A DNA stretch of 64,000 bases from Methanomassiliicoccales archaeon (GTDB lineage Archaea > Thermoplasmatota > Thermoplasmata > Methanomassiliicoccales > UBA472). Of the stretch, positions 1-30,546 are shown one piece after another. The stretch spans positions 1 to 64,000 of the forward strand of contig JAVYMA010000010.1 of NCBI GenBank assembly GCA_038740345.1. The letters run 5' to 3'. The number at the start of each line of letters is the position of its first letter. The stretch's first letter is position 1. Position numbers and translations under genes: made by a program. Below the pieces are notes generated by a model. It did no database searches. It saw nothing but the letters and a program-made list of their open reading frames with translations, and was not told where the DNA came from.

Positions 1-233
1 ATGAAAAGTATAATGAAAATAATTATTTACCAAATGCGTAAAAAGCATTGTATTGTGATTATTTGTAAAATTTTAGTTGTATAATAAACATTAATTTTAT
101 ATTAAAATATAATAAATTATTAATTTATAAAATAATATTTATATAAATTAGTTTTTAAAAAACAATATATAATAAATAAAAAGAATAATAGAATATAAAA
201 AAAATTAAAAATTGGCATGATATTCATTAATTC

Positions 234-1199
234 ATGATCAATGAGTTTGTCTTTTTAAAAAATTCATTAAAGAAAATTGGTTTGGAAAAAAAATATACTA
301 AAAAAGTTTTATATTTGATAATTTTAGGCTTAGATATATTATCCTACATTATTTTTATAATAAAAAATATAATTTTAAATATTAAACTAAAAGGTGATAT
401 CTATAACATTTTTAGAATAGATAATTATCTTATGTATTTAGATATAAATGCAAGAGGAATTCACCAGGATTTAAAAGTATATAGAAAAAGGGAAATTTAT
501 TCTTATAGTTTTTTTAAAAATATAATAAAAGATGATTCAATAATTGTAGATATAGGAGCTAATATTGGTTATTATGCGCTATTAGAATCCATCCATGCAA
601 AAAATGGTAAAATATATGCTATTGAACCTGTGTTAAAGAATTATAATATTTTATTAAAAAATATATATATTAATAAAATTAATAATATAATTCCAATAAA
701 TATAGGAATTTCTGACAAAAACGAATTTAAGCAAATTTATGAATATGAGTGTTGTAATTTATCTAGTTTCATTAAATTAAATAATAAAAAGATTGTTTCA
801 GAAAAGTTAATAGAAACTAAAAATTTAGATGATTTTATTTATTTATATAATATATGTCCAAACATTATTCGAATGGATGTTGAAGGTTATGAATATGAGA
901 TTTTTGAAGGGGCTAAAAAATTTTTGAAAAATTGTAAAAATATAACAATTTTCATTGAATTACATCCTAAAATACTAGGAATTAATAAGTATTTAGAAAT
1001 TTTAAATCTACTTAAACAAAACGGTTTTAAAATATTAGCAATTTTTAATGAACCCCCCCCTTTAAGGTTACCTTTATTAAATTTATATTTATATTTTTAT
1101 AAATATAGCAAATATAATTATGGTAAAATAGAAGGAGGATTTGACAGACTTTTTAAAATGGCTGATTTGGATTATTTTGAATTATTTATTACTAAATGA
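234..1199 (+). CDS. FkbM family SAM-dependent methyltransferase
   Basis: A 321-residue protein of the FkbM family, which O-methylates sugars or polyketides using S-adenosylmethionine. The SAM-binding glycine-rich loop DIGANIGYYA lies near residue 103, followed by the acidic strand end AIEP. The family signature MDVEGYEYEIFEGA is near residue 214. The N-terminal ~50 residues are basic with a hydrophobic stretch that may associate with the membrane. The gene is extremely AT-rich, like the next two genes, and unlike the GC-rich backbone. With a radical SAM enzyme and a glycosyltransferase beside it, a role in decorating a surface glycan is likely but inferred. The substrate cannot be read from the sequence. 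Confidence 0.85.
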   Translation: MINEFVFLKNSLKKIGLEKKYTKKVLYLIILGLDILSYIIFIIKNIILNIKLKGDIYNIFRIDNYLMYLDINARGIHQDLKVYRKREIYSYSFFKNIIKDDSIIVDIGANIGYYALLESIHAKNGKIYAIEPVLKNYNILLKNIYINKINNIIPINIGISDKNEFKQIYEYECCNLSSFIKLNNKKIVSEKLIETKNLDDFIYLYNICPNIIRMDVEGYEYEIFEGAKKFLKNCKNITIFIELHPKILGINKYLEILNLLKQNGFKILAIFNEPPPLRLPLLNLYLYFYKYSKYNYGKIEGGFDRLFKMADLDYFELFITK

Positions 1200-1286
1200 C
1201 TTAATTAAAATTATTATATGCTTATAATATTATCTATTATTTTCATAATAAAAGCATTTAAGATGAGATTTTCTATTTAATATTTA

Positions 1287-2708
1287 ATGAAAGTATTGTT
1301 AATTAACCCTCCAACATCTAAGAAAGGGCAATTTATTGCCAGAGAAGATAGGTGTGAAAATTCTGTAATCAACCCTATTCCACCAACTGGATTGGTATAT
1401 TTAGCAAGTATTTTGGAAGAAAAAAATCACCAAGTTAAAATAATTGATGCGAATGGAGCTGATTATTCTTTAGATTTTTTGCGCAAAGTATTCCTTACTG
1501 AAAAACCTGATTATTTAGTCATCAAAGTAGCTCCAGAAACTTTTCATTCAGATTTAAAAGTAGCCGAATTATGTAAAAATATATGCAAAAGTAAAATTAT
1601 AATGATATGTTGGTCCTTAACAAATTTACCTCTTGACGTGATGAATAATGCAAAATTTGTAGATTATTATATTATTGATCATTATTATGAAAGAGTTATA
1701 CCAGAAATCATTGACGAAGTAAGATTATCATCAATAGAGGGATTAGCATATCGTGAAGAAGACAAAATCGTTTTAAATGAAGGTTCCAATAAATTTGATT
1801 ATAATAAAATAAAAAAACCTAACTGGAATTTAATTGAAAACTTTGAGAAATATTGGGTTCAAGCACCTGTCTTTTCTCCATGGTGTATGGTGATAAGTAC
1901 AAAAGGGTGTGGCATGGGTTGTATTTTTTGTACTATTTATGATATAAAGCCTTCTTTTCGTGATATAAAAAATGTTGTTGATGAGGTTGAGTTTTTATAT
2001 AATAAAAAAAATATAAATTATATTTCTTTTTTTGATGCAACTTTTAATTTGAATCACAAACGACTTATTGCTATTTGCCAAGAGATCAAAAGCAGGGAAT
2101 TGAAAGGATTAATTTGGTTCGCAAATATTCGTGCAGGCATAACGAAAGAAGAAGCAACTTCAATGTATGAAGCTGGTTGCCGAGGAGTTTCAATAGGAAT
2201 AGAATCAGGTTCGCAGCAAATATTAGAAAATGCCGCGAAAGGCATTGATATAAATCAAGCTTCTAATACGATTAAGATTTTAAAATCTGTTGGCATTAGA
2301 CAATATACATCTTTTATTTTAGGCCTTCCTGGTGAAACTATGGATACTATGCGTATGACTAAAGAATTTATTCTTAATACAAAACCTAATGGCTTTCAAA
2401 TCAATAGTTTGGTTCCATATCCAAGAAGTAAAATTTTTGAAATTGCTAAACAAAAAGGCTTATTAAAAGATTATAACTTTGAGGATTTACTTTTATATAA
2501 CACTCCAATCAGTTTATCAGATCATTTAAATGCAAATCAAATCAATATGTATAGGGAAAAGATTTATAAAATGATTTATTTAAATCCTACTTGGTGGCTT
2601 TATAATGCCATGGAAGCTTTATTTAACAATCAAGAAATAAAAAGTAATTTATCTTATAGTTTTAGACTTCTAAAAAGGGTTTTTCAAGGTGTAAAAAATG
2701 AAGTATAA
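1287..2708 (+). CDS. B12-binding domain radical SAM protein
   Basis: A 473-residue protein with the usual class B radical SAM layout. An N-terminal cobalamin-binding Rossmann domain (about residues 1-135, starting KVLLINPP) precedes a radical SAM barrel (about 195-400). The cluster-binding CX3CX2C motif is Cys208, Cys212 and Cys215 (CGMGCIFC). The GIESGSQQIL and LGLPGET segments are typical of the barrel. Family members carry out methylations or other radical chemistry on lipids, sugars and cofactors. The specific reaction is unknown. It lies 87 bp after the FkbM gene in the same AT-rich block, suggesting a shared surface-modification pathway. Confidence 0.87.
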   Translation: MKVLLINPPTSKKGQFIAREDRCENSVINPIPPTGLVYLASILEEKNHQVKIIDANGADYSLDFLRKVFLTEKPDYLVIKVAPETFHSDLKVAELCKNICKSKIIMICWSLTNLPLDVMNNAKFVDYYIIDHYYERVIPEIIDEVRLSSIEGLAYREEDKIVLNEGSNKFDYNKIKKPNWNLIENFEKYWVQAPVFSPWCMVISTKGCGMGCIFCTIYDIKPSFRDIKNVVDEVEFLYNKKNINYISFFDATFNLNHKRLIAICQEIKSRELKGLIWFANIRAGITKEEATSMYEAGCRGVSIGIESGSQQILENAAKGIDINQASNTIKILKSVGIRQYTSFILGLPGETMDTMRMTKEFILNTKPNGFQINSLVPYPRSKIFEIAKQKGLLKDYNFEDLLLYNTPISLSDHLNANQINMYREKIYKMIYLNPTWWLYNAMEALFNNQEIKSNLSYSFRLLKRVFQGVKNEV

Positions 2709-2731
2709 TGTAATTAAAAAAACATTAGAAT

Positions 2732-3949
2732 TCAATTTTTTAAAATCGATTCATACAATAATTCGGTTTTTTTTGCTGTGATGTTCCAATTGAATTCCTG
2801 TATTGCTTTTTTTCTTGCCGCCTCTCCCAATTTCTTCCTTTTATTATCGTTTTCAATTAAAGAAATCAATGTCTCAGCAAGCATTTTGCTATCGCCAGGA
2901 TTAATTAGAATTCCTTCTTGATCGTTAGTAATCATTTCCGGAATTCCACCTACATTTGTAGTCACAATAGCTGTGCCGGAGGACATTGCTTCGAGAATTG
3001 CAAATGGAAAATTTTCGTAATAGGATGGTAAGACAAAAATGTCCGATGAGGCCAATAATTTTTTTTTCTCTTCCGTTGTAAGGTATCCTAAATAAAGGCA
3101 GGAATTAGGTAACTTTTTTATAATATTTTGATCGCCCGGTCCCGCAATTATAAATTGGACATCATAATATTTTTCTATAATTTTTATCGCTTCTAATAGT
3201 GTCAAAATTCCCTTTTTTCCTACAACCCTTGAAATAAATGTTATTATGGGCATATTTGTTTTTATATTCGGATTCATATTTTTTAAGAAACTTACATCTT
3301 TATTACCTGGGTTGAACGCATTTATATCAATTCCATTGTAAATAACATTTATCTTATTTTCATCTATTTTTTTTTCTTTTGAAAATATTTTCTTTGCCCA
3401 ATTTGAAACTGTAATATAATTATATCTTTTTTTATAATAATTATTTTCCAATGGAATAATAATCGGTGAAATTAAATAACTAAGAAATTCACTTCTTTCT
3501 AAAAAGCTAAAATTTATTTTATTATATATTATTGCATTAATTTGACCTTGAACGGTGGTGTGTATCGTTGTCAAAATCGGTATTTTTATACGAGAAGTAT
3601 TTATAAATAAATCTGGCATTGTACTTTGCGTATGAATTATGTCAATATTTTCTTTCTTCAAAATTTTTTCTAGAATACCTTTAACTTTTAATTGAAAATC
3701 GACATTAAAGAGAAATGTATCTGATGCAATACCAACACTATACAAATTAACGTTATTTTTATATTTATATTCTTCCTCTATAATTTTAATATTTTTATTA
3801 AAAGTCACTCTCTTTGGAGTAATAATATAAAGCTCAACTTTATGAGATAAAGTTTTCGCTAGCTCATTTACATAAGTTCCAACTCCTCCCCAAACAGTAT
3901 GAAATTCGGGTGTCAATATTAGTACATTCATTTTTTTAAATGAATCCAT
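2732..3949 (-). CDS. glycosyltransferase family 4 (GT-B fold)
   Basis: A 405-residue GT4 glycosyltransferase. The N-terminal half has the acceptor-side motif GGVGTYVNELA (residues ~21-31). The C-terminal half has the nucleotide-sugar binding region with FISRVVGKKG and the EX7E motif in ENFPFAILEAMSSG, followed by VTTNVGGIPEMI. The length is normal and both Rossmann halves are present. It is convergent with the radical SAM gene (24 bp between stops) and equally AT-rich. It probably adds a hexose to a lipid-linked or protein-linked glycan. Donor and acceptor are unknown. Confidence 0.88.
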   Translation of the reverse strand: MDSFKKMNVLILTPEFHTVWGGVGTYVNELAKTLSHKVELYIITPKRVTFNKNIKIIEEEYKYKNNVNLYSVGIASDTFLFNVDFQLKVKGILEKILKKENIDIIHTQSTMPDLFINTSRIKIPILTTIHTTVQGQINAIIYNKINFSFLERSEFLSYLISPIIIPLENNYYKKRYNYITVSNWAKKIFSKEKKIDENKINVIYNGIDINAFNPGNKDVSFLKNMNPNIKTNMPIITFISRVVGKKGILTLLEAIKIIEKYYDVQFIIAGPGDQNIIKKLPNSCLYLGYLTTEEKKKLLASSDIFVLPSYYENFPFAILEAMSSGTAIVTTNVGGIPEMITNDQEGILINPGDSKMLAETLISLIENDNKRKKLGEAARKKAIQEFNWNITAKKTELLYESILKN

Positions 3950-4265
3950 TTTAGTTTTATAATGTTATCTATAACTTCTGAATTTGTAAATATTATAAAA
4001 TGCTACAATCCTAATTTATAATTATAATAAGCAATTTTCATTTTGCTAAACTTTTTTGATTATTTATTTATTATATAATAATATATTAATTAAACTTTTT
4101 TATATAATATTATTATTTTTATTATTATAAAAATTATAATAATATTTTTAAAATATAGACAATATATTTATATTAAAAGATACAATTAATACTTCATTAA
4201 TTAATTAAACAAACTCTTGAAACTGTTTATCACTAATTTTTAATTATAAAAATGAATTTTTCTCT
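3950..4265. other. AT-rich intergenic spacer
   Basis: About 316 bases of almost pure A/T between the glycosyltransferase start and the histidine kinase stop. It has runs such as TTAATTAATTAAAC and no reading frame worth calling. It must hold the promoter of the glycosyltransferase (minus strand), but the TATA box cannot be picked out in such AT-rich sequence. No stem-loop of note was seen. Confidence 0.6.
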
Positions 4266-23407: not shown

Positions 23408-24022
23408 TCACAATTCTTTTATTAATTTTCGAAATTTTATTTCATTTATTTTATCATAAAACAACTCGATATTATAACCTAATATTTCGAGAAATAATTT
23501 TTGCTTTCCTTTAAGCTCAAAATCTAGCATCTTCGGCACTTTAAAATGGACATTATCATAATTAAAAAGTACCAAAAAATCGGCAAATCTTGTATTTCTT
23601 ATAATAAGATCTTTGAAACTTTCTAAAAGAATCATTATCTCATTTAATTCTATAGTAAAAAAAATATAATACTCAATTTTTTCAAAATAGGTTTCGATTA
23701 TCTTTCTGACAGATAACAAATCGGCGGTAATTGGAATTTCCAATACGATAAAATTTATGGAATCCTCATTCTTATATTCATTTAAGATATTTTCCAAATC
23801 TATTTTTGACGTACAGCAGAAACAACCACTTGTTATGTATTCATTGTGCACTTTAATTTCGCGATTTTTGCAAGAACTTAATTCCAAAGGCTCAGCGATC
23901 TCTCGAATAAATAAAATATCATTCGCATTAAGAGTATTAAATATATTCATTAGTGTCCATTTTATTATAATCTCCTTCGTCAATCTATTTATGCCGCCTA
24001 CTAATATTACTCTTTTAATCAT
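23408..24022 (-). CDS. degenerate CobW/HypB-like protein lacking a P-loop
   Basis: A 204-residue protein whose SGCFCCTSKIDLENIL segment (residues ~66-81) matches the metal-binding CXCC motif of COG0523/CobW GTPases. The N-terminal VILVGGINRLTKE occupies the place of the Walker A loop but lacks the GXXXXGK[ST] residues. No NKXD-type base-recognition motif is clear (VLFNYDNVHF is where it would be). It is also shorter than CobW (~320). It is likely a metal- or cofactor-binding accessory that does not hydrolyse GTP. Divergent from the corrinoid protein gene, whose control region it shares, and AT-rich like the island. Confidence 0.6.
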   Translation of the reverse strand: MIKRVILVGGINRLTKEIIIKWTLMNIFNTLNANDILFIREIAEPLELSSCKNREIKVHNEYITSGCFCCTSKIDLENILNEYKNEDSINFIVLEIPITADLLSVRKIIETYFEKIEYYIFFTIELNEIMILLESFKDLIIRNTRFADFLVLFNYDNVHFKVPKMLDFELKGKQKLFLEILGYNIELFYDKINEIKFRKLIKEL

Positions 24023-24115
24023 TGCTTGATATCATCCATATTTATTATTTAACTTCTAATTTCTATCATTCAATTTTTAAAAGGGTTCATAAACAATTTA
24101 ATCAACTAAATGTAA

Positions 24116-24134
24116 GTGGGTTGGTTTAACCCAC
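24116..24134 (+). promoter_or_regulatory. hairpin in the corrinoid operon leader
   Basis: A perfect 7-bp stem, GTGGGTT (24116-24122) with AACCCAC (24128-24134), around a 5-base loop. It lies about 85-100 bases before the corrinoid gene. A TATA-like TTTTTAAAA at 24074-24082 would start transcription near 24105, so the hairpin would be close to the 5' end of the mRNA. It could equally be a DNA operator. Confidence 0.45.
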
Positions 24135-24174
24135 CATGAAAATGCTTATTACATGACTTTTTAAAAATTAATTG

Positions 24175-24204
24175 AGCGGAGGGGAAACGAAATCCCCAAT
24201 CGCT
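24175..24204 (+). promoter_or_regulatory. second leader stem-loop just before the ribosome site
   Basis: AGCG (24175-24178) pairs with CGCT (24201-24204), and GGGGA (24181-24185) with TCCCC (24193-24197), around an AACGAAA loop. The stem ends directly before the AAGGGGG ribosome site (24205-24211) of the corrinoid gene, so it could influence translation. Proposed from complementarity only. Confidence 0.4.
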
Positions 24205-24217
24205 AAGGGGGTATTTA

Positions 24218-24850
24218 ATGAATAGCGTGTTTGAAAAATTGGAGAAAGCAGTCCTTGATATGGACGAAAACCTGGCTAAAAGCGCTGCCAACGAGGTTCT
24301 TTCAAAGAAACTCGATGTGGTTAGCGCGATTAATGATGGGCTAGTTAAGGGTATGAAGATTGTTGCCAGTAAATATGAAAAAGAGGAAATATTTCTCCCT
24401 CAAGTGTTGGCTTCCGCTAACGCCTTTTATGCGGCTTTTGACATTCTTCGGCCCCATATGTTGACAGGCGCTAAAACAGTGGGGAAGAAAGTAGCCATCT
24501 GTGTGGTCGAGGGGGACATCCACGATATTGGAAAAAATCTAGTAAAAACAATGATCGAAGCCAATGGCTATCATTGCATAGATATGGGTCGAGACGTACC
24601 CGTTGAAGATTTTGTGCAATGCATTGTCGAAAACAAACCTGAATTCGTGGCAATGTCAACATTGATGACGCCAACGATGAAAAGCATGCGAAGAGTAATT
24701 GAGGGCATGGTGGAAGAAGATGTTCGAGAGGGTCGCAAGGTTATGATAGGTGGAGGGCCCGTAGATGCAGAATTTGCTGATGAAATAGGAGCTGATTTCT
24801 ACGGTGAAGATGAGAATGAAGCGGTAAATTGGCTTAAGTCACAGGGGTGA
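24218..24850 (+). CDS. MtaC-like methyltransferase corrinoid protein
   Basis: A 210-residue methyl-carrier protein. The N-terminal helical cap (residues ~1-85: LEKAVLDMDENLAKSAANEVL, then EIFLPQVLASANAFYAAF) is followed by a B12-binding Rossmann domain (about 90-210). His102 in GDIHDIG is the lower axial cobalt ligand (DXHXXG). SLM-like residues follow in VAMSTLMTPTM and a GGGP in the last loop. The size is that of MtaC, MtbC, MttC and MtmC. It has a strong AGGGGG ribosome site and overlaps the following UroD gene by 4 bases. It should accept a methyl group from a substrate methyltransferase and pass it to a second methyltransferase. Confidence 0.93.
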   Translation: MNSVFEKLEKAVLDMDENLAKSAANEVLSKKLDVVSAINDGLVKGMKIVASKYEKEEIFLPQVLASANAFYAAFDILRPHMLTGAKTVGKKVAICVVEGDIHDIGKNLVKTMIEANGYHCIDMGRDVPVEDFVQCIVENKPEFVAMSTLMTPTMKSMRRVIEGMVEEDVREGRKVMIGGGPVDAEFADEIGADFYGEDENEAVNWLKSQG

Positions 24851-25917
24851 TGAAAATGACTGAAATGACTCCGTTACAAAGAGTAGTAACAACAATTCAA
24901 GGAGGTATTCCCGATCGAGTACCAGTAATTTTGTATTTCCAGTCGGCTGCTCAATATGCAGCAGTAAGAGATGATAATACTTGGTATGAGTTACTTAATA
25001 ATTCGACTAAGCTATATAAAAATATAGTACAACAATATGAATATTATGGAGCGGATAACTTCTTCCTTCCCTTAGATTTCAGGGTTGATGGAGAAGCTTT
25101 TGGCAGTAAATGTGAGTATTTATTAAAATGTGGAGGCGGAATGAGGATGCCAGTTGTGACTCAGTTCGCCATTCAAAGCAAGGATGAAATCGATGATTTG
25201 GAAATACCTGATCCAAAGAAAGCTGGCAGATGTCCAATAATACTTAAGACCATTGAAAAATTGAGCTCGAAATATGGTAATAAAGTACCAATTGTGGGTT
25301 TCATCAACTCTCCACCAGATGTGGCGACGGACATAATCAAAGGACATTATTCAACTGTACTTCCAATGATGGCAACTGACAAGGCATCCTTGCATAAGTT
25401 ATTAGCAAAGATCACAGAGTTCGAAATAGAGTTTGGAAAGGCGATGGTAGCCTCAGGAGCACATGCATTGGCAACTGTTGGAGGGGGATTCAATCACCTG
25501 ACTATTGGGCCGCAGCAGTTCAAGGAATTCGTAGCTAAATATCAGGCGCAAATAGTAAAAGGGGTAGGGGTACCTTATTGTTTCCACCAATGCCAAGATG
25601 CTACGCCGTTTTTTGACGATATCATAGGGACAGGTGCTGGTGCAGTGGCTTTCCATGAACTTGTCGACTTAAAATGGGCTAAGGAGAAATATGGGAAGAA
25701 AGTCATACTGGCTGGAAACCTTGGCGTCTCTGAGTCTCAGAGTGTGGCTTACGGTGGTACAGCGGAGGAAGTGGAAAGAGAAACGAAGAGAATTATTGAA
25801 ATTGGCAAACCAGGAGGGATGTTCTGGTTTAGTGCAGGTTGTGAAGTACACCATGCCCTACCGGAGAGGAACATACTCACTATGATAAAAGCTGCCAAAA
25901 AGTATGGTGCTTATTGA
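24847..25917 (+). CDS. divergent UroD-family methyltransferase, candidate substrate methyltransferase
   Basis: A 356-residue uroporphyrinogen-decarboxylase-fold protein of the methyltransferase branch. The zinc-ligand pattern is present: His247 and Cys249 (FHQCQD) and Cys332 (SAGCEV). The C-terminal motif is SAGCEVHHALPERN rather than the PGCGFAPETPLAN type of MtaA/MtbA found in the next gene, so the two paralogues are unlikely to be redundant. It is translationally coupled to the corrinoid gene (4-base overlap). UroD-family proteins are usually corrinoid:coenzyme M methyltransferases, but some act on the primary methyl donor. With no MtaB/MttB/MtmB/MtbB nearby, I infer it demethylates the unknown substrate. 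Confidence 0.85.
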   Translation: MMKMTEMTPLQRVVTTIQGGIPDRVPVILYFQSAAQYAAVRDDNTWYELLNNSTKLYKNIVQQYEYYGADNFFLPLDFRVDGEAFGSKCEYLLKCGGGMRMPVVTQFAIQSKDEIDDLEIPDPKKAGRCPIILKTIEKLSSKYGNKVPIVGFINSPPDVATDIIKGHYSTVLPMMATDKASLHKLLAKITEFEIEFGKAMVASGAHALATVGGGFNHLTIGPQQFKEFVAKYQAQIVKGVGVPYCFHQCQDATPFFDDIIGTGAGAVAFHELVDLKWAKEKYGKKVILAGNLGVSESQSVAYGGTAEEVERETKRIIEIGKPGGMFWFSAGCEVHHALPERNILTMIKAAKKYGAY

Positions 25918-25975
25918 TTAAGCAACTAAGAGATAAAACATCAAGCCTAATGATAAGATAGCGGAGGCTGAGACT

Positions 25976-27004
25976 CTGAATGAGAAGGACAGGCTCTTTA
26001 GAGTGCTAAATCAAGAAAAAGTGGATAGAATACCTTGTGTCAGTCCATTGCAGACAGGGACTTTAGATTTAATGAAAGCATCAGGAGCTTATTGGCCTCA
26101 TGCTAACAACGATGCCGCTCTTATGGCTAAATTGGGAAAGGCTGCATACGAGTTCGCGGGCATTGAAAGCGTAAGGATTCCATTCGACGTCTCAGTCGAC
26201 GCTTCAGCTTTTGGCGCTTTAACTGGTAAAGAGGGCATAGATCGCCAACCTTCAATTTTAAAGGCTCCCATCACCAGTCAGGAGGAACTTAATGCAGCTA
26301 AGATTCCTGATCCATACTCTGCAGGCCGTGCACCGGTTGTGCTTGAGGCAATCAAATTGTTATCAAAGGATCCAGAATTAAAGGACGTACCGATAATTTG
26401 TGCTATTGTAGGACCTTTCATGCTCGCTGGTCAGCTACGCGGTTCACAAGAAGCAATAATGGATGTAGCTCTAAAGCCAAATTTCATAAAAGGAATTCTG
26501 GAAAAAGCTACAGAGTGGAATATCGAATTTGCAAAAGCTGCTCTAGAATCAGGTGCAGACGTTATTGCTGTTATTGATGCAACGTCAAGTGGTGATGTTC
26601 TTGGTCCTAGCCAATATGCTGAGTTTGCAATGCCATACCAAAAGAGGGTTAATGAGGCAATTTGCAAAGCAGATGGATATTCAATCCTTCACATCTGTGG
26701 TAAGACCTCCAAGAATATGCAATTCATGCTTAAAACGAAAGCAAATGGAATAAGCGTGGACCAGCAAATGGATATCGGATGGGTGAAGCAACAGCTTATT
26801 GGTAAAGCAGCATGCATAGGTAATATAAGTCCAACTTCAACTCTTTTGTATAAGAAACCCTCTGATGTAGAGATTGAAGTTAAAAGGGTGATTTCGGCTG
26901 GAACAGATATTGTAGCTCCAGGTTGTGGTTTCGCTCCAGAGACCCCGCTCGCTAATATGAAGGCTATGGTGGAGGCAACAAAAAAGTACGGTTGCATTGG
27001 CTAG
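25976..27004 (+). CDS. MtaA/MtbA-like methylcobamide:CoM methyltransferase family protein
   Basis: A UroD-fold methyltransferase closely matching MtaA/MtbA: zinc ligands in LHICGK (HXC) and APGCGFAPETPLAN, plus GNISPTSTLLY before the last motif. It probably transfers the methyl group from the corrinoid protein to coenzyme M. The first in-frame ATG/GTG/TTG is GTG at 26003, which would delete the conserved N-terminal helix. The frame stays open upstream and reads NEKDRLFRVLNQEKVDRIP, the family start, directly after a CTG at 25976, which has a GGAGG site about 8 bases before it. I place the start at this CTG. Both nearby ATGs (25950, 25980) are out of frame. Confidence 0.85.
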   Translation: MNEKDRLFRVLNQEKVDRIPCVSPLQTGTLDLMKASGAYWPHANNDAALMAKLGKAAYEFAGIESVRIPFDVSVDASAFGALTGKEGIDRQPSILKAPITSQEELNAAKIPDPYSAGRAPVVLEAIKLLSKDPELKDVPIICAIVGPFMLAGQLRGSQEAIMDVALKPNFIKGILEKATEWNIEFAKAALESGADVIAVIDATSSGDVLGPSQYAEFAMPYQKRVNEAICKADGYSILHICGKTSKNMQFMLKTKANGISVDQQMDIGWVKQQLIGKAACIGNISPTSTLLYKKPSDVEIEVKRVISAGTDIVAPGCGFAPETPLANMKAMVEATKKYGCIG

Positions 27005-27013
27005 GTGCGACAA

Positions 27014-28657
27014 ATGGCAGAGAGATATGGCGTAGCGATTGATATAGGGACAAGTGGTTTAAGAGCTCAAAGCATAGATCTCGAAAGTAAAAGGGTCATA
27101 GCTACAGCGATAACTTTGCGCCATCCATTACCTGGTGCAAATGTTATGGATCACCTTCATTTCGCTATTGATGTGGGGCGAGATTTTTCTCATCGTTTAA
27201 TCATCCGAGCACTTAACGCCCTTTTGATGAAAATTGGAATTGATTTAAGGAAAGTTGAGAGAGCTGCTGTTTGTGGCAATCCGATTCAGCTTTCCCTCTT
27301 CCAAAATATCGAGATCCGTGATCTTGCTTATGCAGGCGATCGTGCTAAGGCAAAATTAGGCGTCGAGAATATAAAAAGGGATTCAAAAATAGTAAAGGCT
27401 GGCAATTTTAATCTGGAAATGAATCCAGAAGCGGATATTATTATACCTCCTGCAGTGAAGCATGAGATTGGGGCTGACGCATTGGCAATGATGTATGAAA
27501 CCGATTTCCTTAAGTATCGTGGTGTGGCCATGGTCACTGACTTCGGAACGAACGCCGAAATGGCATTGAAAGTCGGAGACGAGATATATACAGGTTCTGC
27601 TGCTGCAGGGCCTGCAATAGAGGGTCAGCATATAAAAATGGGCATGCTCGCTGCACCAGGGGCTATTTCAGATGTCAATGCAACTTCTGATGGAAAATGG
27701 CAGACCTTTGTCTTGAATGAACAGATGTATGCTGTCCTTTCTGACATAGTCAATCCTTTAACAGGAGAGGTAATAAGTCCAGCTCAAATTCCGGTAAAAG
27801 GCATAACTGGTACTGGTGTTATTGGTTTAGTAGCAACCGGTCTAGACACCGGTTTGATGAAACCTGGCAAAATGCTCACACCTGATAAAATTATTAGATT
27901 GCAAGGGGGGATATCATTTGATGAAGAAGATTTCATTGAGGTGGGAAAAACAATCGCAGCTTTCACCTCAGGTCACATAACATTGGCAACAGAATGTGGT
28001 ATTTCGCTTCGAGAAATCAAATCGATGTATATGTCTGGAGCTTCGGGAACCTATATGTCCTCTCCAAAGGCAGCGAGAATTGGTCTGATTCCTGGTACAG
28101 TAGAAAGAACAGTTCAGGCGGGAAACACATCGCTGGCATTATCTCGTGATTTAGTCCGTCAGCCTGAATTAATAGATAAGATTCAGGAAATGGCTAATTC
28201 TATTCGCGCGAAACATATCATGTTTGCCAACTCTAAGACCTTTGAGAACGCTTTCGCAGTGGAATTGGGTGTTTGGACTCAGGGGATGTCTACCGAGAAT
28301 GAAGACAAAATGTTGAAACATTTTGGTCTCGAGTCAAGACCACCTCTGAATCGTAATATAGAAGTAATCAGGTTGGTACAGCGGGATATCCAGGACATTG
28401 GTGAAAAAGGTTTGACCGTGGTGCATGACATTGGAATAAAATTAATTGGAGAATTTGAGGGTTGTATTGGAGACGGGCGATGCGTCAAAGCGTGCAACGA
28501 AGATGCAATTCAAATTCAAAAAATTAAAGAAAAATGGAATGTTATTATTTCATCAGATAAGTGCATGGGCACGGCCTGCAGGCGTTGTGAGCGAGCTTGT
28601 AAACTGAAAATATTGAAATTGGAGAAACTGAGGATTGTAGGGGAAGGCGCAAGCTGA
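27014..28657 (+). CDS. RamA-like corrinoid reductive activase (ASKHA plus ferredoxin domain)
   Basis: A 547-residue protein of the RamA/COG3894 family, which reduces inactive Co(II) corrinoid proteins to Co(I) using ATP. The N-terminal ASKHA/DUF4445-type region begins GVAIDIGTSGLRAQSID and includes TDFGTNAEMAL and MSGASGTYMS. The C-terminus is a two-cluster ferredoxin. The second cluster motif is complete (CX4CX2CX3C, Cys517, 522, 525, 529). In the first, CIGDGRCVKAC, the usual second cysteine is Asp487. I use the ATG at 27014, preceded by AGGTG; an in-frame GTG lies at 27005. It sits directly behind the methyltransferases and overlaps the DUF1638 gene by one base. Confidence 0.88.
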   Translation: MAERYGVAIDIGTSGLRAQSIDLESKRVIATAITLRHPLPGANVMDHLHFAIDVGRDFSHRLIIRALNALLMKIGIDLRKVERAAVCGNPIQLSLFQNIEIRDLAYAGDRAKAKLGVENIKRDSKIVKAGNFNLEMNPEADIIIPPAVKHEIGADALAMMYETDFLKYRGVAMVTDFGTNAEMALKVGDEIYTGSAAAGPAIEGQHIKMGMLAAPGAISDVNATSDGKWQTFVLNEQMYAVLSDIVNPLTGEVISPAQIPVKGITGTGVIGLVATGLDTGLMKPGKMLTPDKIIRLQGGISFDEEDFIEVGKTIAAFTSGHITLATECGISLREIKSMYMSGASGTYMSSPKAARIGLIPGTVERTVQAGNTSLALSRDLVRQPELIDKIQEMANSIRAKHIMFANSKTFENAFAVELGVWTQGMSTENEDKMLKHFGLESRPPLNRNIEVIRLVQRDIQDIGEKGLTVVHDIGIKLIGEFEGCIGDGRCVKACNEDAIQIQKIKEKWNVIISSDKCMGTACRRCERACKLKILKLEKLRIVGEGAS

Positions 28658-29457
28658 TGCCTGGAAACGGTAAGATCTTAGCTATTGTGGGCTGCCGTTT
28701 GTTCGAAGACGAACTAGTTCATGTCTTGATAAACGATGAAAAAATTAACGAGATATTCATCGTAGACAATGAAGATTCAAAAAATTTACTGTGCAAATTA
28801 TTTAAGAAGAGAATTAAAGCAAACATTACCACAATTTCAGAAAATGATTTATCGAAGTTAAAAGCACTGAAAGGATATTCAGTTTTAGTATGGGTAAAAT
28901 CTATGGCTTTGCATCAAAAGCCAGATCGACTTAGAGAGGACATACTAACAACCCTTAAAAAATTAGAACCGTTTGTTGACGCGGTACTCCTATTTTATGG
29001 ACTTTGTGGAAATGCTTTCAAGCACATCGAAAAAGATGCGGGTGATTTTAAAATCCCAACTATTATACTTCGTGATGAGAAAGGACAGATTGTGGACGAT
29101 TGCATAGGCTGTGCTTTCGGAGGCGTGGAAGAATACTTTAACCAACTTAGAAAATCAGCGGGTACCTTTTTCCTCACACCTATGTGGGCAGCTAATTGGC
29201 GTATCTTGTTTCATAAGGTCCAGATATTGCCCGATCCTAATGATGTTGAGGGAGCTAAATACATATTCAAATGTGTTGGTTATAAGAAAGTGGTAAAAAT
29301 AGATACTAGTCTGGGTGATGAAGAAGAATTTGAAAAGCAGGTGGATGAGTTTTCAAAGCTTTTCGAGTTTGAGAGAGGGGAAATAAAATGTGTGCCAAAA
29401 ATAGTTGAGTCTTCCTATTTGATGGCAAAAAGAGCCGCAATTGGCTCTATTCTTTAA
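28657..29457 (+). CDS. DUF1638 protein of the methyltransferase cluster
   Basis: A 266-residue DUF1638 protein. Conserved cysteines lie in VGCRLFEDEL (Cys13), FYGLCGNA (near 114) and DDCIGCAFGG (near 149-152), suggesting a metal, cluster or corrinoid site. The family is known mostly from methanogens and corrinoid-using anaerobes, often beside methyltransferase genes; its role is not established. The start overlaps the last base of the activase stop (TGATG), so it is the last gene of the operon. Its 3' end overlaps the convergent regulator by 11 bases. Confidence 0.85.
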   Translation: MPGNGKILAIVGCRLFEDELVHVLINDEKINEIFIVDNEDSKNLLCKLFKKRIKANITTISENDLSKLKALKGYSVLVWVKSMALHQKPDRLREDILTTLKKLEPFVDAVLLFYGLCGNAFKHIEKDAGDFKIPTIILRDEKGQIVDDCIGCAFGGVEEYFNQLRKSAGTFFLTPMWAANWRILFHKVQILPDPNDVEGAKYIFKCVGYKKVVKIDTSLGDEEEFEKQVDEFSKLFEFERGEIKCVPKIVESSYLMAKRAAIGSIL

Positions 29458-30466
29458 TGCGGCTCATCCATTCAGCATATGATCCGCGGGTAATGTCGAA
29501 TACGCCTACTACTGCTATAACTTCATTTTTTCGAATTAAAGGTACAGCCAGAACAGGGCAACCTCTATATTTTCCAGCTTTTGAAATGCGTCGTAACACG
29601 GTTCCTTTTTTCAAAGTTTCTTCTAGAACAGGGCCTGTGAAATTGGTTTCAATAATTTTGCCGTCTTCGCATCTAACCCCATAATGATTTCTGCTTCTCA
29701 TAGTAACTGGAAGTCGACCAACGATTTCGTGAACCATTAACGCAATGCTCTTAATGTCTTCTTCCTCGTTTTCTTCAGAAATAATTTTTTCAATTTTTTC
29801 AAGGCAACCATTTGAGGTATCAGTGAGAGAGAGACCAGCCCTTATAGCTCCCATTTCTGCTGATGAATATTCATCAGCACCGGCAATAATTAGAACATCA
29901 CCATCCTCGATAGTAAAGAACTTCCTCAAGGGCTCAATGTGTTTTTGGTCTGGAAAACGTTCATCTGTTGGAAAAATCACCTTTCCATTTTTCGCTACTA
30001 ATATTATGGCTCCTTTGGCTCCTACTTTGACGGCTTCATCTCTTTCGCGGATGCCATCTTTAACTCTGTCCGCTGCTTTTCTAACAAGTACACAGCAATT
30101 AAATTTCCCAATAGAGAGTTCTACCCAACCTAATTCTATTATTTCCATCCCAAGTTTTTGGAACTTTTCCTGCCCTCTTTGTGTGATTACAGCACCCCGT
30201 TTCGTTAATTCTAAACAACCTTCTTTGGTTAAGTGTTCTAATAAGGTCCTAGTACTAGCTTCACTTAATTTCATCATAGAAGCAAGAGTTCTTCTACCGA
30301 TTGGCCCGTTTCGTCTTACTAAATCAAAGCATTTCCAAACATGGTATAGATTGAAGTTTGGGTGAGGTCCTTTATGGACATGAATATTGAATTCTAAGGC
30401 CACAATTATACTTATTCGTCGTAATTGCATATCACATTTTTGGTTGATAAAAATGAATTTGCTCAT
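29447..30466 (-). CDS. HTH regulator with DUF4443/DUF2111-type domains
   Basis: A 339-residue probable transcription regulator. A winged-helix domain (residues ~38-105: FDLVRRNGPIGRRTLASMMKLSEASTRTLLEHLTKEGCLELT) is followed by a middle domain (about 110-225). The C-terminal sensor-like domain (about 235-339) reads LPVTMRSRNHYGVRCEDG, TGPVLEETLKKGT and GCPVLAVPLI, matching DUF2111. These domains occur in methanogen regulators. Convergent with the methyltransferase operon, it is the obvious candidate for its control, with the C-terminal domain sensing substrate or redox state. An internal ATG at 30430 is an alternative start. A tandem GTTGAT repeat lies just upstream. Confidence 0.82.
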   Translation of the reverse strand: MSKFIFINQKCDMQLRRISIIVALEFNIHVHKGPHPNFNLYHVWKCFDLVRRNGPIGRRTLASMMKLSEASTRTLLEHLTKEGCLELTKRGAVITQRGQEKFQKLGMEIIELGWVELSIGKFNCCVLVRKAADRVKDGIRERDEAVKVGAKGAIILVAKNGKVIFPTDERFPDQKHIEPLRKFFTIEDGDVLIIAGADEYSSAEMGAIRAGLSLTDTSNGCLEKIEKIISEENEEEDIKSIALMVHEIVGRLPVTMRSRNHYGVRCEDGKIIETNFTGPVLEETLKKGTVLRRISKAGKYRGCPVLAVPLIRKNEVIAVVGVFDITRGSYAEWMSRIKE

Positions 30467-30510
30467 GGACCATTATAATGACCGAAATTTACACAAATTT
30501 TGAATTTACA

Positions 30511-30546
30511 GTTGATATAATTAATTAAGTTGATATAATTAATTAT
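30511..30546. promoter_or_regulatory. tandem 18-bp repeat with GTTGAT half-sites, candidate operator
   Basis: GTTGATATAATTAATTAA (30511-30528) is repeated at 30529-30546 with one mismatch. Inverted copies of the core, ATCAAC, follow at 30559-30564 and 30583-30588. The array lies 45-120 bases upstream of the regulator start, where archaeal promoters and operators sit. Autoregulation is inferred. Confidence 0.45.

Follow-up and report, generated by a model that had tools for sequence, protein, structure and literature searches.

We analyzed a 64,000-nucleotide stretch of DNA (the window; contig JAVYMA010000010.1, positions 1 to 64,000) from a Methanomassiliicoccales archaeon and describe here a cluster of seven genes within it. 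Five of them lie on the + strand at 24218-29457, with overlaps or gaps of no more than about 60 bp, and encode a corrinoid protein, two UroD-family proteins (UroD1 and UroD2), a RamA-type activase, and a DUF1638 protein. We favor, with some reserve, the reading that they form a methanogen operon for methyl transfer that is complete in itself and has three components, in which UroD1 would carry out the first step, UroD2 would deliver the methyl group to coenzyme M (CoM), and RamA together with DUF1638 would reactivate the carrier. Searches for open reading frames and domains placed all cluster genes at the positions given in an initial annotation of this DNA, including the two UroD-fold proteins, the RamA-like activase, and the DUF1638 and DUF2111 genes that it had named. 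The operon genes are as follows.

24218-24850, +: corrinoid protein (methyl carrier), cobalt ligand His102; PF02607 70 bits, PF02310 87 bits
24847-25917, +: UroD1, proposed substrate:corrinoid methyltransferase; PF01208 203 bits, zinc ligands His247, Cys249, and Cys332
25976-27004, +: UroD2, predicted methyl-corrinoid:coenzyme M methyltransferase; PF01208 240 bits, probable CTG start, GGAGG at 25963-25967
27005-28657, +: RamA-type corrinoid reductive activase of the methanogen type; TIGR04270 703 bits (cut-off 500), RACo domains, ferredoxin-like C-terminus
28657-29457, +: DUF1638 protein, proposed accessory of corrinoid reactivation; PF07796 124 bits

Conservation and composition of the operon

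UroD1 orthologues were found in 8 of 147 genomes of the order, spread over three families and six genera, and the full-length ones are 57-82% identical to one another. The corrinoid gene lies directly 5' of UroD1 in all eight, including two genomes (G344 and G346) in which UroD2 and RamA are not alongside. In the host, the start of UroD1 shares 4 bp with the end of the corrinoid gene, and wherever the pair occurs its two genes either touch or overlap, in line with the translational coupling noted in the initial annotation. The gene-neighborhood comparison that it had called for also showed that the order corrinoid-UroD1-UroD2-RamA-DUF1638 is shared by four genomes that represent two families (the host, G342, G125, and G322). 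DUF1638 is the last operon gene in the latter three and adjoins UroD2 in G346, where the UroD2-DUF1638 pair sits about 3 kb upstream of the corrinoid-UroD1 pair. In G338 and G255, the contigs end at UroD1. A scan of genome contigs with UroD1 returned a single locus, L066, at the same place as in G344.

GC content falls to 0.21-0.45 across approximately 23.0-30.7 kb, compared to mostly 0.54-0.60 in the surroundings, and all seven genes lie inside this interval. Their GC content at third codon positions (GC3) is 0.27-0.43, versus 0.63-0.78 in flanking genes, and operon orthologues in G342, G338, and G125 have values of 0.71-0.82. The seven-gene AT-rich island behaves as a single unit, and its composition would be explained most simply by acquisition from a source richer in AT. 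Compared to G342, synonymous sites are saturated while the proteins remain 58-82% identical (nonsynonymous divergence, dN, 0.12-0.35), which indicates that the island genes are under selection. Since the gene order recurs in two families, the proteins are conserved, and the genes share one AT-rich block, the cluster is more than a chance arrangement.

The corrinoid protein and the two UroD proteins

The DxHDxG motif containing His102 is invariant across 12 aligned corrinoid proteins, which upholds the corrinoid assignment and cobalt ligand of the initial annotation but not its 'MtaC-like' label. MtgC and MtbC models outscore MtaC models (181 and 166 versus 142 bits), the best match in the PDB is MttC, and identity to the protein adjoining MtaB in G346 is 30%; by these comparisons, 'MtaC-like' is not the best label.

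By sequence, UroD2 is a member of the methylcobamide:CoM methyltransferase family. It passes the curated cut-offs PRK06252 (334 bits, cut-off 244) and TIGR01463 for MtaA/CmuA (281 bits, cut-off 235), and it bears the MtaA/MtbA-type motif APGCGFAPETPLAN that had been reported for it. Its zinc site, His-x-Cys...Cys, is kept in alignment with Methanosarcina mazei MtaA (4ay7), with which it groups at 100/97 in a subclade different from that of the genome's MtaA-like protein on contig C25. Scores in the NCBIfam tests for an MtaA or MtbA equivalog were lower than the cut-offs (NF040654, 309 against 400; NF041608, 280 against 600). Proteins of the UroD2 clade are found, too, where there is no UroD1 and no corrinoid gene close by (G232 and L113), as expected if UroD2 is a general CoM enzyme. 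Translation probably begins at CTG 25976 rather than GTG 26003, because homologues begin MNEKDR (ATG, G125) or LNEKDR (TTG, G342) and because GGAGG sits eight bases 5' of CTG-AAT-GAG-AAG.

UroD1 scored under the same family cut-offs (PRK06252 159 bits, TIGR01463 144 bits), as did four of its orthologues (145-175 and 133-161 bits). In a UroD tree built without MtbA, MtsA, and the original Mlp sequences, UroD1 and its orthologues form a 100/100 clade on a long stem, outside the 100/97 clade that holds UroD2 and M. mazei MtaA. Placement of both UroD proteins inside MtaA/MtbA, which the initial annotation had named as evidence against its proposal, was not what the tree returned. In approximately unbiased (AU) tests, holding UroD1 with UroD2 gave p = 0.053 and holding it with the MtaA group gave p = 0.077; as sister of the whole CoM group it gave p = 0.39, and with MlpB and MlpD of Acetoanaerobium p = 0.25. 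The first two placements are only marginally disfavored, and more than one sister of UroD1 is compatible with these results. An AlphaFold model built from seven sequences was of moderate quality (pLDDT 69, pTM 0.79) and best matched MtaA (TM 0.82); it was applied to the fold only, with active-site geometry left aside. Phage and plasmid collections, from which CmuA, HemE, and the Acetoanaerobium cluster were taken as references, held no close relative of UroD1 (identity at most 26%).

The zinc triad of UroD1 (His-x-Cys...Cys; His247, Cys249, Cys332) aligns to that of MtaA 4ay7 and is invariant in seven orthologues, those of G344 and G346 included. S- and Se-methyltransferases of the UroD family keep the Cys ligands, whereas O-methyltransferases replace one or both of them (PMC10418091). 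The intact triad in UroD1 would thus favor methyl-sulfur-type donors over methoxy or betaine donors. To our knowledge, the betaine methyltransferases described so far are MttB-family proteins, and MttB was not detected in the host by the searches given below. Of the methoxy, methylthio, and betaine donors put forward in the initial annotation, the methylthio type is therefore the one to which the His-Cys-Cys site points.

Outside the window, the host genome (1.79 Mb, 99% complete) was covered by searches for protein families and by reading a restricted set of stretches. It encodes methyl-CoM reductase, nine UroD-family genes, four corrinoid proteins that the searches could detect, all of them with a UroD gene close by, and one MtaB (G000:C1:182356-183747). 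The earlier statement that MtaB, MtmB, MtbB, and MttB are missing is true of the cluster and, because of this MtaB, false for the genome. In family searches in which stops were read through for the pyrrolysine-type enzymes, MttB, MtmB, and MtbB were detected neither in the host nor in the other seven UroD1 genomes. MtaB was found in two of the eight (the host and G346) and was not detected in the other six, which are metagenome-assembled genomes (MAGs) of 78-97% completeness. By sequence, UroD1 is the only operon candidate for the substrate half-reaction. Its separation from UroD2 and its tie to the corrinoid gene also speak for the substrate:corrinoid role first proposed for it; the AU results are the part of that proposal that stays marginal.

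In the mechanism we propose, UroD1 would bind the corrinoid protein in its Co(I) state. A zinc ion of UroD1, coordinated by His247, Cys249, and Cys332, would activate a small methylated substrate at its leaving heteroatom (a thiolate, most likely), and the methyl group would move to the cobalt. UroD2 would then transfer it from the methyl-corrinoid protein to CoM, and methyl-CoM would feed methyl-CoM reductase. RamA, aided by DUF1638, would re-reduce Co(II) that has fallen out of the cycle, and the neighboring CobW-like protein may assist metal or cofactor loading. We infer from sequence which way each half-reaction runs, that CoM accepts the methyl group, and that the substrate is of the methyl-sulfur type. 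DUF1638 has been tied genetically to RamA-type corrinoid activation in Phaeobacter (PMC5764234), and co-abundance with RamA-type activation was reported in Ruegeria (PMC12478193). Use of methyl-sulfur compounds is plausible for the Methanomassiliicoccales, since mtsAB and mtsDFH homologues have been reported, with transcript evidence, in members of the order from a mire (PMC10805028).

We hold a bolder version to be possible but not probable: UroD1 would found a new substrate:corrinoid family, some methanogens of the order would live wholly on UroD-type first-step enzymes, and the donor would fall outside the known list. Under that version, the donor could be a methylated sulfur compound other than dimethyl sulfide (DMS) or methanethiol, or a soft-atom donor such as trivalent dimethylarsenic. 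We know of no enzyme identified for the demethylation of trivalent dimethylarsenic. Methanomassiliicoccus luminyensis has been reported to carry out this reaction (PMC10579292).

Two side observations concern other corrinoid genes in these genomes. A further corrinoid cluster that is conserved, with RamA and an MtaA-like UroD but no MtaB alongside, occurs at L050 (G000:C25), L106 (G342:C82), and L059 (G125:C5); its G342 and G125 copies also encode a hydantoinase/oxoprolinase-family protein that the stretch read in the host does not contain. Another corrinoid-UroD pair, whose UroD belongs to a different clade (100/100, His-Cys-Cys kept), occurs in the host, G125, G344, and G342 (L052:6900-8629, L061:6101-7827, L066:175-1938, and L107:2-1671), and its UroD is possibly a further first-step enzyme.

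Alternative readings and flanking features

Several points weigh against the methyl-transfer operon as we describe it. The placement of UroD1 outside the CoM enzymes is marginal rather than firm in the AU tests. CmuA, whose substrate is chloromethane, carries the same His-Cys-Cys triad in our alignment, so the triad is not conclusive. MAG incompleteness can mimic absences, and single absences may be assembly gaps. In G344 and G346, a gene for a PAS hybrid histidine kinase follows the corrinoid-UroD1 pair on the same strand, at a distance of 50-70 bp. Lastly, a single protein, MtsA, reportedly carries out both half-reactions (PMC7374477), so the roles of the two UroD proteins could be divided otherwise.

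The AU results leave some room for the idea that UroD1 is an accessory or another enzyme of the CoM type, with the substrate step carried out by an enzyme encoded elsewhere, either the genome's MtaB or an unrecognized protein. That the host MtaB has no mtaC on its contig, in a genome with only four detectable corrinoid proteins, would fit such an arrangement. However, the MtaB locus of G346 and G156 carries CobW, RamA, and an mtaC, the last directly upstream of mtaB, and the host contig ends at that very point, so the corrinoid protein of the cluster is unlikely to be MtaB's own partner. G346 holds both the MtaB locus and the corrinoid-UroD1 pair, on separate contigs, and most UroD1 genomes show no MtaB. 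Use of this corrinoid protein by a distant MtaB, which the initial annotation had listed as a finding that would tell against it, is weakened by these loci, and we judge an enzyme elsewhere to be distinctly improbable. In the closed G156 genome, the mtaC beside mtaB (L104:8379-9158) is split into two reading frames, which looks like a frameshift or sequencing error.

The kinase genes of G344 (L066:4573-9060) and G346 (L076:6330-11096) raise a different possibility, that the corrinoid-UroD1 pair senses a methyl donor or the corrinoid state and acts on transcription rather than in bulk metabolism. The Azoarcus plasmid pAZKH offers a parallel, with a corrinoid-UroD pair followed by two annotated ATP-binding proteins (L085:4372-9521), although its UroD lacks the Cys ligands and belongs to another clade. 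Corrinoid-linked sensing is possible at these loci of two archaea and pAZKH. As an account of the operon it is very unlikely, since the host, G342, G125, and G322 carry the pair with a CoM-type methyltransferase and activase and without a kinase, and the catalytic triad is invariant in every UroD1 orthologue, including those next to the kinases.

It is also unlikely that the operon is a type 1 mlp gene cluster kind of system, even though the parts are the same: a corrinoid protein, several UroD proteins with His-Cys-Cys, and an activase. A cluster of this architecture in Acetoanaerobium (L079) likewise begins with a CobW gene, and a joint clade of UroD1 with its MlpB and MlpD was not rejected by the AU test. 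Membership calls for one or more orthologues each of Mlp2 and Mlp3 (PMC10418091). In the best tree, UroD1 and MlpB/MlpD form separate clades, the activase here is of the methanogen RamA type in a methanogen host, and no mention of DUF1638 was found for type 1 clusters. None of the eight UroD1 genomes has SelD above cut-off, whereas Sec machinery is present in 87% of type 1 species (PMC10418091). Selenium salvage by the operon is likewise unsupported by the SelD search, the selenium trait being usual but not universal in type 1 clusters.

Three further features flank the methyl-transfer operon.

23408-24022, -: CobW-like protein, degenerate, divergent from the operon; GCFCC retained, Walker A motif missing
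24117-24133, strand not applicable: 17-bp dyad TGGGTTGGTTTAACCCA in the intergenic region of the CobW-like and corrinoid genes, candidate operator
29447-30466, -: HTH-DUF4443-DUF2111 protein, probable regulator, convergent on the operon; PF09884 102 bits, PF14544 96 bits, HTH-type N-terminus

The CobW-like flank named in the initial annotation is present, and its GCFCC is invariant in homologues that are just 27-28% identical; the protein scores under the Pfam PF02492 cut-off (18.1 versus 20.7 bits), and its sequence has no Walker A P-loop (no GKT), so it falls short of a CobW/COG0523 GTPase. Homologues hold the same divergent position in G342 and G338. In these three genomes with the divergent gene, the dyad lies 75-105 bp 5' of the corrinoid gene, beside a TATA-like stretch. 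Its counterpart in G342 and G338, at the corresponding position, reads TGGGATGGATAATCCCA, with the two arms altered together relative to the host copy, and chance would yield 0.11 matches in the window at two or fewer mismatches. The dyad was not found in the other five UroD1 genomes, and we regard it as a putative operator. The HTH-DUF4443-DUF2111 protein is probably a regulator, and its orthologue precedes the corrinoid-UroD1 pair in G255. Folding of the 5' leader of the corrinoid gene was unremarkable (z = -1.4), an Rfam search of the window gave no match, and promoter and terminator scans gave no more than chance level.

Directly 5' of the DUF2111 regulator gene, the window contains a perfect 18-bp tandem duplication (AGTTGATATAATTAATTA twice, 30510-30545). 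Half-sites like CATCCATCC or ACCAACC recur upstream of corrinoid genes in G125, G322, G255, and G342:C82 and resemble one dyad arm; a common regulator of methyltransferase operons possibly stands behind these candidate sites. Farther away, positions 1-4000 of the window form a 25% GC block with GC3 of 0.13-0.20 (two genes measured), unlike the genome's usual composition. Its genes resemble a methyltransferase, a radical-SAM protein, and a glycosyltransferase, and the block looks like a further foreign island.

Relation to known methyl-transfer systems

No description of this two-UroD operon turned up in the literature searched. Its parts and logic are already known from Cdm (PMC13222342), MtsAB (PMC7374477), and type 1 mlp clusters (PMC10418091), and we class it most readily as a variant of corrinoid methyl transfer through UroD proteins. 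To judge which methyl compounds a methanogen uses, one normally looks for MtaB, MtmB, MtbB, and MttB. None of these four was detected in six genomes that carry the operon or its corrinoid-UroD1 core, and the methyl diet of these genomes would be scored as missing. UroD-family enzymes may thus replace classical first-step methyltransferases more widely than annotation indicates, and the operon supplies a small, expressible set of proteins for direct assay of the missing substrate.

Likened by description, MtsA/MtsB of Methanosarcina barkeri (PMC7374477), homologues of which are reported in Methanomassiliicoccales (PMC10805028, PMC4153887), shares with the operon a UroD methyltransferase with a separate corrinoid protein, an S-type zinc site, and CoM methylation. 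MtsA combines both half-reactions in one protein, whereas here there are two divergent UroD proteins with linked RamA and DUF1638. In the MtaABC methanol system the three-component logic is the same and MtaA is related to UroD2, but the operon has no MtaB-type first-step enzyme and its corrinoid protein, as noted, is 30% identical to the MtaB-linked one of G346. CmuA/CmuC of chloromethane metabolism (pCMU01, L082) likewise uses a His-Cys-Cys UroD domain acting on substrate and corrinoid, although CmuA is a UroD-corrinoid fusion of aerobes in a separate clade.

Type 1 mlp clusters (Kountz and Balskus, PMC10418091), exemplified by Acetoanaerobium noterae L079, have a corrinoid protein, an activase, at least two His-Cys-Cys UroD proteins, and, in L079, a CobW gene. 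The operon differs in its UroD clades, methanogen-type RamA, DUF1638, lack of SelD, and methane-making host. L079 itself (NZ_CP154629.1 85854-104897) has four UroD-like genes, the corrinoid protein, activase, and CobW gene beside ABC transporter genes; its CobW scores weakly (88.6 bits, cut-off 180) in the family of CobW-related selenoproteins, and the 2.63-Mb record, filed as a plasmid, is probably a chromosome, judging by its size. CdmBCA of Acetobacterium dehalogenans and the related O-demethylases MtvB, OdmB, VdmB, and MtoB (PMC13222342) also have a UroD-fold protein that methylates a corrinoid protein in the first step. CdmB binds no zinc, and its methyl group goes on to H4F via an MtrH-like protein, whereas UroD1 keeps the zinc triad and is partnered by a CoM-type UroD. 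With its Cys ligands in place and no sequence match to CdmB at E 0.001, UroD1 does not qualify as a UroD-type O-demethylase or a member of the CdmB group. By analogy, the best reading is that the operon would work like MtsAB, type 1 mlp clusters, and Cdm.

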